Made by a program: the position numbers and the translations under genes. From Flavobacterium sp. N1994 (GTDB taxonomy: Bacteria; Bacteroidota; Bacteroidia; Flavobacteriales; Flavobacteriaceae): a DNA stretch of 64,000 nucleotides. How positions within the stretch are numbered: position 1 is the first letter of the stretch; every line of letters begins with the position of its first letter. The stretch lies in the NCBI RefSeq assembly GCF_025947145.1, contig NZ_CP109999.1, positions 1,984,001-2,048,000 of the forward strand. The letters run 5' to 3'. Below the pieces are notes generated by a model, which was not told where the DNA came from, made no database searches, and saw only the letters and a program-made list of their open reading frames with translations. Positions 4,978-52,857 of this stretch are shown here, in pieces.

Positions 4978-5027
4978 GACTTTCAATTGAACTACAAAGG
5001 TAACAAAAATTCAAATGGTTTCTCCTT

Positions 5028-5083
5028 TAGCCCTGATGGGAGCGGCACCGAAGTAGAGCGGACAGCAGGAATATGGATTACTG
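5028..5083. repeat. Short flavobacterial intergenic repeat (TAGCCCTGAT...GCGGACAGCAGGAA type)
   Basis: The mce-rbfA gap holds TAGCCCTGATGGGAGCGGCA, a short middle, then GAGCGGACAGCAGGAA. From memory, intergenic elements of the form TAGCCC(T/C)GAT..GCGGCATCC-hairpin-GGA(A/C)AGCAGGA recur widely in Flavobacterium genomes. This copy appears to have lost most of the central hairpin. It is locally GC-rich compared with its surroundings. No second copy was seen in this window, so the family assignment rests on recall. Confidence 0.5.
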
Positions 5084-49436: not shown

Positions 49437-49550
49437 TAAAGTTTTGATATTGGTTTTTTCAATGGAATTATATAAAAATAGTATTTCTTTATACAAAGTT
49501 AAATGTATAAATTTGAATTCGTTTTAATACTAACTAAATATAAAAATATC

Positions 49551-50159
49551 ATGGCTTTTGAATTACCGCAATTACCTTATGCTTACGATGCATTGGAACC
49601 TTATATTGATGCTAGAACAATGGAGATTCACCACTCTAAACATCACAACGCCTACACTACAAATCTAAATGCTGCTATAGCTGGAACAGATTTGGAAGGA
49701 AAAACAATCGAAAATATTTTAATAAATCTTGATATGAAAAACGCAGCCGTTCGTAATAACGGTGGCGGGTTTTATAATCACAATTTGTTTTGGAGAGTGA
49801 TGGCGCCTAATGCTGGTGGAAAACCTTCTGGAGAATTAGCAGATGCTATTGATGCTGCTTTTGGTTCGTTTGACGAATTTAAAGCACAATTTGCAAAAGC
49901 GGGTGCGACACGTTTTGGATCGGGTTGGGCTTGGCTATCAGTTCACAAAGGAGGAAAGTTAGAAGTTACTTCTACTGCCAATCAAGATAATCCTTTGATG
50001 CCCGAAATTTCAAATGGTAGTTTCCCAATTTTAGGTATGGATGTTTGGGAACATGCTTACTATTTAAATTATCAAAACCGTCGTCCTGATTATATTGAAG
50101 CTTTCTTTAATGTAATTAACTGGACAGAAGTAGCCAGATTGTACGCTACAGAAAAATAA
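49551..50159 (+). CDS. sodA: Iron/manganese superoxide dismutase
   Basis: A 202-residue cytoplasmic SOD. The metal ligands are His27 (MEIHHSKHH), His77 ([11 protein letters not shown]), Asp164 and His168 (MDVWEHAYY). The ATG at 49551 ([17 protein letters not shown]) is chosen over an upstream codon at 49503. It detoxifies superoxide. Metal choice (Fe or Mn) cannot be read; the GFYNHNLFW context is found in both. A TAAATTTG at 49508-49515 may be its -7 element. It is followed by a terminator and then the small-RNA array. The symbol is provisional: sodB would apply if iron. Confidence 0.93.
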
Positions 50160-50181
50160 AAAAGAGATTCTGAATCAATAG

Positions 50182-50209
50182 ACCGACTGTGAGAGCAGTC
50201 GGTTTTTTT
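50182..50209 (+). terminator. Terminator of sodA
   Basis: A perfect 8-bp stem ACCGACTG (50182-50189) / CAGTCGGT (50196-50203) is followed by a run of T. Confidence 0.85.
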
Positions 50210-50224
50210 ATTGGGTATAGGCCT

Positions 50225-50301
50225 AAAAAATAAACAGGCGGAATCTCTTCCACCTGTTTGCCCCAAATCTACCATAAACTTAACCTACTAAATACTATGG
50301 T
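50225..50301 (-). ncRNA. Predicted small RNA, copy 1 of 4
   Basis: Read on the minus strand. The promoter is TTG (50333-50335), 19 bases, TAGTTTTG (50306-50313), a full consensus match, with the start predicted at A50301. The RNA has a 5' hairpin ACCATA/TATGGT, an AGATTTGGGGCAAA linker, then a terminator (AACAGGTGGAA / TTCCGCCTGTT, GAGA loop) and T6. It is about 77 nt. Its loop (GTATTTAG start) and terminator differ from copies 2-4, while the hairpin stem, the apical GTAGGT and the linker are unchanged, which is the pattern expected of selection on RNA. Confidence 0.75.
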
Positions 50302-50420
50302 AACACAAAACTAAGCACAACTTGTTAAAAAACAAGGTTTTTTGTTAAAAATATATTGGGATGATAGGCAAATGAGAGTGAAATCTCTAATTTTCAATGA
50401 TTATAGCGCTTAAATAAAAT

Positions 50421-50491
50421 AAAAAAGGTGAAGTAAACTTCACCCTTTTTGCCCCAAATCTACCATAAACTTAACCTACTAATGCTATGGT
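50421..50491 (-). ncRNA. Predicted small RNA, copy 2 of 4
   Basis: Minus strand. The -7 element is TATATTTG (50496-50503) with the start at A50491, four bases on, as in the other copies. A 5' hairpin ACCATA/TATGGT, the linker AGATTTGGGGC and a terminator GGTGAAG / CTTCACC with T6 follow (about 71 nt). The terminator stem differs in sequence from copies 3 and 4 but keeps pairing. No protein-coding frame is conserved across copies. Confidence 0.75.
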
Positions 50492-50607
50492 GAAACAAAT
50501 ATATAAGGGATAGAATGCTATAAAAAAATATTTCGGATGAACTACATCAAAAATCGTTAAAGTCAATAGTATTGTTTATTAAGAGGAATTTACAGCTTGT
50601 AGAAAAT

Positions 50608-50680
50608 AAAAAAGGTGAAAATTTCTTTTCACCCTTTTTGCCCCAAATCTACCATAAACTTAACCTACTAATGCTATGGT
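50608..50680 (-). ncRNA. Predicted small RNA, copy 3 of 4
   Basis: Minus strand. The -7 element is TATATTTG (50685-50692) and the start is A50680. The 5' hairpin runs from 50680 to 50651 (loop GCATTAGTAGGTTAAGTT, with an inner TTA/TAA pair around GTAGGT). The linker is AGATTTGGGGC and the terminator GGTGAAAA / TTTTCACC with T6 ends near 50608. It is about 73 nt and almost identical to copy 4. Confidence 0.75.
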
Positions 50681-50796
50681 CCAACAAATATATAGGAGAT
50701 ATATTGCCCGAAAAAAATATTTTAGATGAATGACGTTAATAGTCGTTGAAGTCAATATTGTTCTTTTTGGAGAGGAATTTGAAGCATGTAGAAAAT

Positions 50797-50869
50797 AAAA
50801 AAGGTGAAAATTTCTTTTCACCCTTTTTGCCCCAAATCTACCATAAACTTAACCTACTAATGCTATGGT
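50797..50869 (-). ncRNA. Predicted small RNA, copy 4 of 4
   Basis: Minus strand. The -7 element is TATATTTG (50874-50881), start A50869; a TTG lies 21 bases farther upstream. The RNA structure is the same as in copy 3 (hairpin, linker, GGTGAAAA terminator, T6), about 73 nt. It is the copy nearest the purF 3' end, transcribed in the same direction as purF but with its own promoter. Confidence 0.75.
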
Positions 50870-50994
50870 GGAACAAATATATAGGGGATAGAATGCTAGA
50901 AACAAATAATTTAGATGAACTACATCAATAATCGTTAAAAGACAAAAAATGTTAAAATTTTAATACGCTCGTGCATTTTTCCCTTCGTAAAAGT

Positions 50995-52857
50995 TCATAA
51001 AGGCCTTGTTGGCCACCCGATTCCCCCTGGAGTTGGATAGTCTCCTGTGAAGTACCAATCTCCTAGATTTTTTGGACACGCTCTGTGTAAATTTTCTACG
51101 GTTTGGAATATGATTTTTACTTCCGCCTTAATATCTTCTGATTTCAATAGTTCGGCTATCTTATCTGATATTTCTTGGTCTGTAAAAGGCTTGTAGATTT
51201 CAGTTACAAAATTAACAACATCGGTGTCTTTATAATTAACTTGAGCTTTGCATTTGGCATAAACTTCATCTACAATGTGATATAAATTGCGCTCTTTCAA
51301 CAAGGCTAAGGTAGCCTGAAAAGCTACTAGCCCTTCTAGTTTTGCCATATCAATACCATAACAATCAGGGAAACGAATTTGGGGTGCTGAGGAAACTACA
51401 ACAATTCGTTTTGGATGTAATCGATCCATCATTTTGATAATCGACATTTTTAAGGTTGTACCTCTAACAATGCTGTCGTCAATAATTACCAAATTATCCG
51501 TTGGCTTAATTACCCCGTAAGTAACATCATAAACGTGAGCTACTAAATCATCGCGACTGCTATCTTCGGTAATAAACGTTCTTAGTTTAGCATCCTTAAT
51601 GGCTATTTTTTCTGTTCTAATTTTTACTGAAAGGATTTCTTCTAGTTTTTCTTTAGTTAATGTTTTTCTATTATCCAGAATAAATTGATTTTTTCTTTGA
51701 TTCAGAAAATCATTAGCCGCTTCTACCATTCCATAAAAAGAGGTTTCAGCCGTGTTGGGAATATAAGAGAACACTGCATTATCGGTGTCGTTTTCAATGG
51801 CTTCTAATACCGCTGGCAGAATTAATTTACCTAACTCTTTTCGTTCTTGATAAATCTCGGCATCACTCCCTCTGGAAAAATAAATGCGTTCAAACGAGCA
51901 TGCTTTTTTAATCGTTGGCGTGATAATTTCTTCTTCTGTAATGATTCCGTTTTTCTTGATAATTAAAGCGTGCCCTGGTTGTAATTCCTGTACTTTTTCA
52001 AAAGGCACATTAAAAACCGTTTGTATGACGGGTCTTTCCGAAGCCACTACAACAATTTCATCATCCTCATAAAAATACGCAGGCCGAATTCCCGCAGGAT
52101 CACGAAATACAAAGGCATCTCCATGTCCTAAAAGTCCAGCCATAGCATAACCGCCATCCCAACCACGAGATGCTTTTTTTAGAATAGTCCCTAAATTTAA
52201 TTTTTCGGCAATAACGGGCGAGGCTTCTCTTTTTGATAAGCCGTTGTTTTTACATTCTTGGTACAAATCGGTAACAGCATCATCTAAAAAGTGCCCTATT
52301 TTTTCCATGACCGTAACGGTATCCGTCATTTCTTTGGGATGTTGGCCTAATTCTACCAAACTATTAAAAAGCTCAGTAACATTTGTCATATTAAAGTTCC
52401 CCGCCAAAATCAGGTTCCTATGCATCCAATTGTTTTGACGCAAAAAGGGATGAACACTTTCCAAACTATTTTTGCCAAAAGTACCATAACGAACATGCCC
52501 TAAAAACAATTCGCCTATATAAGGAATATGCTCTTTTTGCAATGCAATGTTATCTTGGTATTCCGGATGAAGTTGGAGTTCTTCATTAATTCTTTCATTA
52601 ATTTGGGCAAAGACATCTTGAATGGCTTGTGTTTTGTTAGAACGCACTCTACTAATATATCGATCTCCAGGTTCTACATCAAATTTTATGGAGGCAAAGC
52701 CAGCACCATCTTGTCCACGGTTGTGTTGCTTTTCCATTAGCAAATACATTTTTTGAATGCCGTAGAAAGCCGAACCGTATTTTTCTTTGTAGAATTCTAA
52801 TGGTTTTTTTAATCTTAAAAGTGCAATTCCACATTCGTGTTTTATGGCGTCGCTCAT
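50995..52857 (-). CDS. purF: Amidophosphoribosyltransferase-like protein (PurF)
   Basis: This is the first step of purine synthesis: glutamine plus PRPP gives phosphoribosylamine. At 620 residues it is longer than E. coli PurF. The N-terminal Ntn-hydrolase domain has its nucleophile at Cys9 (KHECGIALL), preceded by an 8-residue segment that may be a short propeptide. RGQDGAGFAS and GHVRYGTFG follow. The PRPP loop is LVIIDDSIVRGTTLK near residue 435. The extra length at the C-terminus is usual in Bacteroidetes. It shares direction with the downstream small RNA array and follows the PfkB-type kinase. Confidence 0.92.
   Translation of the reverse strand: MSDAIKHECGIALLRLKKPLEFYKEKYGSAFYGIQKMYLLMEKQHNRGQDGAGFASIKFDVEPGDRYISRVRSNKTQAIQDVFAQINERINEELQLHPEYQDNIALQKEHIPYIGELFLGHVRYGTFGKNSLESVHPFLRQNNWMHRNLILAGNFNMTNVTELFNSLVELGQHPKEMTDTVTVMEKIGHFLDDAVTDLYQECKNNGLSKREASPVIAEKLNLGTILKKASRGWDGGYAMAGLLGHGDAFVFRDPAGIRPAYFYEDDEIVVVASERPVIQTVFNVPFEKVQELQPGHALIIKKNGIITEEEIITPTIKKACSFERIYFSRGSDAEIYQERKELGKLILPAVLEAIENDTDNAVFSYIPNTAETSFYGMVEAANDFLNQRKNQFILDNRKTLTKEKLEEILSVKIRTEKIAIKDAKLRTFITEDSSRDDLVAHVYDVTYGVIKPTDNLVIIDDSIVRGTTLKMSIIKMMDRLHPKRIVVVSSAPQIRFPDCYGIDMAKLEGLVAFQATLALLKERNLYHIVDEVYAKCKAQVNYKDTDVVNFVTEIYKPFTDQEISDKIAELLKSEDIKAEVKIIFQTVENLHRACPKNLGDWYFTGDYPTPGGIGWPTRPL

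Follow-up and report, generated by a model that had tools for sequence, protein, structure and literature searches.

What are the four repeated units between sodA and purF in Flavobacterium sp. N1994, and on what might they act? Flavobacteriaceae are abundant polymer degraders in soil and sea, and sRNA regulation in this family is little charted. An earlier note on the window, i.e., the whole stretch of 64,000 nucleotides that was analyzed, had described the units as selected sRNA genes on the minus strand, without naming a target. We arrived at the same description of the locus, which by its sequence features is a tandem array of predicted sRNA genes, and we propose a target for them, the mRNA of a CAP-domain lipoprotein. 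The features of the locus, in window coordinates, are as follows.

50797..50869, minus strand: sRNA unit nearest purF, 73 nt including the T run, start at 50869
50608..50680, minus strand: second sRNA unit, 73 nt, start at 50680
50421..50491, minus strand: third sRNA unit, 71 nt, start at 50491
50225..50301, minus strand: sRNA unit nearest sodA, 77 nt, start at 50301, most diverged of the four
50874..50881, minus strand: TAnnTTTG box of the purF-side unit
50685..50692, minus strand: TAnnTTTG box of the second unit
50496..50503, minus strand: TAnnTTTG box of the third unit
50306..50313, minus strand: TAnnTTTG box of the sodA-side unit, TTG 19 nt upstream
50911..50939, minus strand: putative direct-repeat operator of the purF-side unit (TTTAACGA, 12 nt, TTCATCTAA)
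50722..50750, minus strand: putative direct-repeat operator of the second unit
50533..50561, minus strand: putative direct-repeat operator of the third unit, which deviates from the search pattern at one position
50995..52857, minus strand: purF, upstream neighbor with the same orientation (so named in the earlier note; only weak Pfam matches to class-II glutamine amidotransferase)
49503..50159, plus strand: sodA, convergent neighbor, Fe/Mn superoxide dismutase as confirmed by Pfam
50180..50205, plus strand: terminator-like site 3' of sodA

The starts are spaced by 189, 189 and 190 nt, in agreement with the earlier note, and all four units share one architecture, in which a TAnnTTTG box is followed by a 4-nt gap, an ACCATAG start, a near-identical 44-nt 5' domain and a terminator of the unit's own. 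The TTG-N19-TAnnTTTG arrangement that the note had reported for one copy was recovered at the sodA-side unit. The purF-side unit has a TTG upstream of the box with a 21-nt spacer, and no TTG was found at the corresponding place upstream of the box in the second and third units. A sigma-70 promoter scan identified 3 sites as compared to 3.7 by chance, which is expected because the promoters of this phylum differ. In total, 9 terminator-like sites were found on both strands of the segment 50150-51000, as compared to 0.5 in shuffled sequences, and 4 of them, all on the minus strand, belong to the units themselves. As is typical of trans-acting, base-pairing sRNAs, each unit appears to have both its own promoter and its own terminator.

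All four units are predicted to fold into a 5' hairpin, an 11-nt linker and a terminator, as previously suggested, with z-scores from -3.25 to -4.81 and none of 200 shuffled sequences equally stable. The apical loop of the 5' hairpin is GUAGGU, the hairpin is followed by AGAUUUGGGGC, which is predicted to be single-stranded, and the linker carries GGGGC. A 30-nt core of the unit occurs at four places in the 3.35-Mb genome with up to 3 mismatches, while the reversed control gave none.

No known family accounted for the array. Rfam searches at gathering thresholds yielded no match on it. The earlier note had considered membership in the Flavo-1 family (RF01705), but the covariance model gave no match in the segment 49900-51200 at E-values up to 10; the sole Flavo-1 match at gathering level in the window (5025-5076, plus strand, 42.9 bits with a gathering threshold of 42) lies apart from the array. 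The best unit scored 27.7 bits against FopS (RF04319; E 0.1, gathering threshold 56), and the top match among the other families at E-values up to 10 was STnc40 (29.8 bits, cut-off 45), both of which were treated as chance or convergence. A phage origin was likewise rejected, since an 80-base unit had no match in phage records and the exact core pattern was absent from viral contigs. We found no description of the array RNA in the literature, with supplements outside the scope of the search. The array RNA may be among the sRNAs Rfp1-89 of F. psychrophilum, the sequences of which are placed in Table S8 of that study (PMC9723704).

The units are characteristic of the family. The core was found, with up to 3 ungapped mismatches, in 109 of 150 genomes of the same genus (reversed control 0). 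A model built from the four units matched 163 of the 199 sampled family genomes, representing 162 of 198 genera. In searches by a second model with strict filters, which may lose weak matches, 17 of 148 genomes sampled across the order and 23 of 247 across the phylum gave a match, and every one of these genomes belongs to the Flavobacteriaceae. The chromosomal address is also nearly fixed: both purF and sodA are neighbors at 44 of 49 related loci, purF alone at three, and neither gene at two, these last being from two other genera (L042 and L054). Two to six copies are present at 131 of 175 loci (some from one genome) and a single copy at 44. Among all loci collected, the copies are on the same strand at each of the 155 multi-copy loci, with a median spacing of 200. 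It could be argued from the row of strong terminators after purF that the repeats are nothing but terminators or duplicated DNA with no RNA function. We consider this extremely improbable, since the promoter box, the operator and the 5' domain are each conserved and none of them is needed by a terminator, and since the copies in the two genera mentioned above are located away from purF and sodA.

The alternative to such passive repeats, an array of selected sRNA genes, is supported by the promoter box, the terminator and the conservation across the family. For these comparisons, 104 matches were reduced to 83 distinct sequences by removal of three chance rows and identical cores, and 150 of 161 matches were included in a further alignment (A5); repeated copies in an identical context contributed a single count, and those with too little flanking sequence were left out. 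TA..TT was observed at the -7 place in every one of the 341 distinct copies for which the upstream sequence was long enough, and the strict TAnnTTTG box within 30 nt upstream in 207 of 340. The earlier note had described the pairing of the terminator stems as kept despite sequence change and had proposed a covariance analysis of homologs. The description holds true for the terminators: of 287 distinct copies, 286 retain one, the 5' arm occurs in 71 different forms, and selection there acts on the pairing and not on the letters. The 5' domain, including both stem arms, is nearly invariant across the family. Its hairpin is paired in 94.6% of cells as compared to 94.3% in shuffled alignments (12-48% in slid versions), because its columns hardly vary, and covariation therefore neither supports nor refutes this hairpin.

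A candidate target emerged from searches with the complements of the loop and the linker. The loop complement ACTTAACCTACT occurs exactly at six places in the genome, four of which are the sRNAs and two of which are near-identical CAP genes with the same leader (L271 and L277, at G000:C1:506816 and 671595). With one mismatch allowed, 15 matches were obtained as compared to 78 in the control, and the exact matches alone were used. The product of both genes is a lipoprotein of 166 residues in which a CAP domain was identified (PF00188, E 1.1e-13). Both leaders also carry TTTGCCCCACATCTAC, the linker complement with one mismatch; searched alone across the whole genome, the linker complement gave 58 matches, barely more than the 52 in the control, and the array accounts for four of the exact matches. 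At L271, a second GCCCCACATCTAC site was observed about 60 nt further upstream. A pyridoxamine phosphate oxidase gene (pdxH-like) is located beside the CAP gene in the three loci tested for this.

Across Flavobacterium, 40 of the 55 distinct CAP leaders can pair, from about -45 to +1, as an antisense of almost the complete 5' domain, with predicted energies of -32.6 to -52.5 kcal/mol as scored with one genus-type 5' domain for all genomes and not with each genome's own copies. The start codon is covered, and for each leader none of 100 shuffles paired as well. No pairing site was identified in the other 15 leaders (best -21.8 kcal/mol). CAP genes that share a 130-nt context were counted once in this set, and one locus without an ATG (L416) was excluded. 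The 40 site-bearing genes display two conserved islands, the operator and the leader site, and TTGCCCCACA in the leader is the top 10-nt block of the upstream-to-start profile with 1.78 bits, as compared to 0.67-1.37 within the initial 60 bases of the coding sequence. When 272 leaders of this genome were sampled, those of the two CAP genes took ranks one and two with -46.7 kcal/mol each, the mean being -17.3 and the next value -33.2; the sample was drawn from the window and from pattern-chosen stretches and not at random, so that most leaders of the genome are outside it. Apart from the 15 exceptions, the sRNAs are thus complementary to a conserved site around the start of an unlinked mRNA, as anticipated for trans-acting, base-pairing sRNAs, and they probably turn down the production of the CAP lipoprotein in Flavobacterium.

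The extent of this complementarity bears on what the RNA does. The near-invariance of the 5' domain, both stem arms included, exceeds the needs of a short seed and could indicate that the RNA mainly binds a protein, as a sponge or scaffold of the Csr-like type, with the CAP complementarity being secondary. This is quite unlikely in our judgment, as such a role does not predict that the CAP leaders mirror almost the whole domain as antisense. The same leader pairing is also compatible with activation or stabilization of the mRNA, for example by shielding from nucleases, and the operator repeat common to the sRNA and CAP genes (see below) would suit joint activation. The predicted pairing spans the start codon, however, and weak folding is predicted for the free leaders (-7.2 to -9.1 kcal/mol over 110 nt in 3 leaders), leaving little inhibitory structure to open, which makes activation an unlikely outcome. 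Repression by antisense pairing over the start codon is the reading that we prefer.

Two further genes are of interest with regard to targets. In a gene for a 126-aa secreted protein (L248/L258, G000:C1:586569, plus strand), 11 nt that are exactly complementary to the linker are found 17 nt upstream of the ATG; its leader is located downstream of an operator-like repeat and ranks ninth of the 272 with -24.9 kcal/mol. It is a possible second target, and should be viewed as a lead only. In another genome (L365, G034:C292:10627), an exact loop complement is found a short distance before the start of a gene whose product, a secreted protein of 419 aa or more, gave no CAP match in the search (-34.8 kcal/mol); this gene is a possible further target.

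We also compared the occurrence of the core and the CAP genes in 61 genomes of the genus, of which 42 contain CAP relatives. The two tend to be present in the same genomes: both were found in 40 genomes, the core only in three, CAP only in two and neither in 16 (Fisher 6e-10); for CAP genes with a pairing site the numbers were 33, 10, one and 17 (Fisher 2e-7). These p-values are descriptive only, as the genomes are not independent and kinship was not corrected for, and the core was scored by an ungapped pattern that may miss other copies. Genome G032 (L368), in which no CAP gene was found, is among the 18 scored as core-less and yet carries an sRNA copy with an indel, and each of the "neither" counts is therefore one too high. 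In genome G002 (L406), a CAP leader contains a pairing site, and the core is absent at up to 3 mismatches. Genomes such as these two could show compensatory changes.

In 10 of the 43 core-bearing Flavobacterium genomes no site-bearing CAP gene was found. A rigid CAP-type site pattern, which misses variants such as the CCCCAACATTTAC form even in Flavobacterium, was identified in 4 of 199 family genomes, namely this one and three with matches in apparent coding regions. Since the rigid site was not found in other genera apart from these three matches, CAP leaves the conservation across the family unexplained, and targets besides CAP should exist there. Conservation of the array where no CAP site is found, and in most genera of the family, would also be in line with the CAP leader serving mainly as a decoy that titrates the sRNAs from other targets, as would the very long complementarity. 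A decoy does not need to cover the start codon, and no other leader in the sample of 272 pairs comparably, with the sampling limits given above; we therefore hold this to be very unlikely. Translational repression of CAP remains our preferred explanation for the leader sites.

The regulation of the array was approached from the direct repeat, which is located at about -70 to -40 of the sRNA copies with a 20-bp period and has TGCATTTCATC twice as its clearest form; it is diverged in unit 4 of the window. The repeat motif was identified upstream of 41 of 55 CAP genes, whereas control windows contained it in 34 of 1000 cases and shuffles in 2 of 1100, keeping in mind that the motif was derived from the same promoters and that the control windows were taken from CAP loci and may overlap their promoters. 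Some CAP genes have the operator motif without an sRNA pairing site (L407, L412, L413, L415), one of them in a genome without the core (L407). A search of the whole genome with up to 1 mismatch gave 86 matches versus 65 in the reversed control, which is not discriminating, and no regulon is therefore claimed from it. LytTR operators are described as two repeats of 9-11 nt that are 11-13 nt apart (PMC4847170), beside which the repeat at the array and CAP promoters can be placed, with about 11 nt and a period of 20, sometimes 21. The operator of the E. coli LytTR protein YpdB, as given in the same source, is a direct repeat of GGCATTTCAT twice, to be compared with TGCATTTCATC in the clearest sRNA copies. 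The two halves are in both cases about two helix turns apart, although the period is 21 in YpdB and 20 in the array, with 21 at some CAP promoters. From this resemblance, the proposed common regulator of the array and the CAP genes is possibly a LytTR response regulator.

Taken together, the explanation that we favor, with a probability of roughly two in three, is a four-copy trans-acting antisense sRNA against the CAP mRNA under a shared regulator in an incoherent feed-forward loop. According to this model, the array would be transcribed into four copies of an sRNA of about 71-77 nt, the nearly invariant state of the 44-nt 5' domain would be maintained by base pairing, and the mRNA of the CAP-domain (PF00188) lipoprotein would be one main target in Flavobacterium. 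The sRNA loop and the GGGGC linker would make contact at two points on the CAP leader, from which the duplex could lengthen until it covers the start codon, whereby translation would be blocked. The 20-21-bp direct repeat at the sRNA copies and the CAP genes would be bound by one and the same transcription factor, which is possibly a response regulator of the LytTR type, so that one signal induces both and the sRNAs restrain CAP, with the number of sRNA copies setting the dose.

More tentatively, and with some doubt, we suggest that the array represents a post-transcriptional system belonging to the core of the Flavobacteriaceae, which we have not found in print. This would be a regulator-controlled tandem battery of sRNAs, in which the whole 44-nt 5' domain with its hairpin is a near-complete antisense of target leaders, giving trans duplexes of about 40 bp that are far above the usual trans seeds, and which forms one regulon with its lipoprotein target. 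The near-identity of the domain in more than 100 genera would then be due to antisense leaders that are maintained in each of them, those of CAP genes in Flavobacterium and those of other genes in the rest. If confirmed, it would be a trans-encoded sRNA with a length of complementarity that is usual for cis-antisense RNAs. In most of the sampled genera, the locus provides a predicted RNA whose chromosomal position is almost constant. Together with a candidate target at the cell surface in one genus and a putative operator common to both, it makes the use of sRNAs by the Flavobacteriaceae testable in laboratory strains.

Several multi-copy sRNA systems provide a basis for comparison. The Qrr sRNAs of Vibrio are several similar sRNAs that are controlled by one response regulator and use sigma-54. 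The array resembles them in having several similar sRNAs, the single response regulator being a feature of Qrr, and a graded dosage as in Qrr, which the earlier note had brought up, is possible for the array copies by analogy. In Listeria monocytogenes, most copies of the sRNA LhrC are arranged in tandem. The LhrC copies are near-identical, have their own promoters, are all controlled by the response regulator LisR and block the translation of the surface-protein mRNA lapB, as reported in PMC4132741. Multi-copy sRNAs with their own promoters, one response regulator and the mRNA of a surface protein constitute a logic that the array is here proposed to share, whereas LhrC blocks the Shine-Dalgarno region with short CU-rich stretches (PMC4132741) and nearly the whole 5' domain of the array is antisense to the leader. 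No sequence relation to LhrC is claimed, nor is membership of the array in LhrC or FopS.

Within the genus, the sRNA Rfp18 of F. psychrophilum is described as widely conserved, with metalloprotease targets and a third stem-loop that pairs (PMC9723704); the array units, compared by description, have two stem-loops. Within the phylum, FopS of Bacteroides thetaiotaomicron (RF04319) is a multicopy sRNA of about 65-70 nt with a sigma-ABfr-type promoter and a terminator, which pairs near the start codon of mRNAs for outer-surface proteins (susC), according to PMC11697453. FopS differs from the array by its dispersed copies, its binding of RbpB and its single-stranded 5' part, in place of which all four array units have a predicted 5' hairpin, while the two are alike in phylum, copy multiplicity, size, the presence of a putative promoter of this type and a terminator, and pairing near the start codon of mRNAs for surface proteins, which is predicted for the array.
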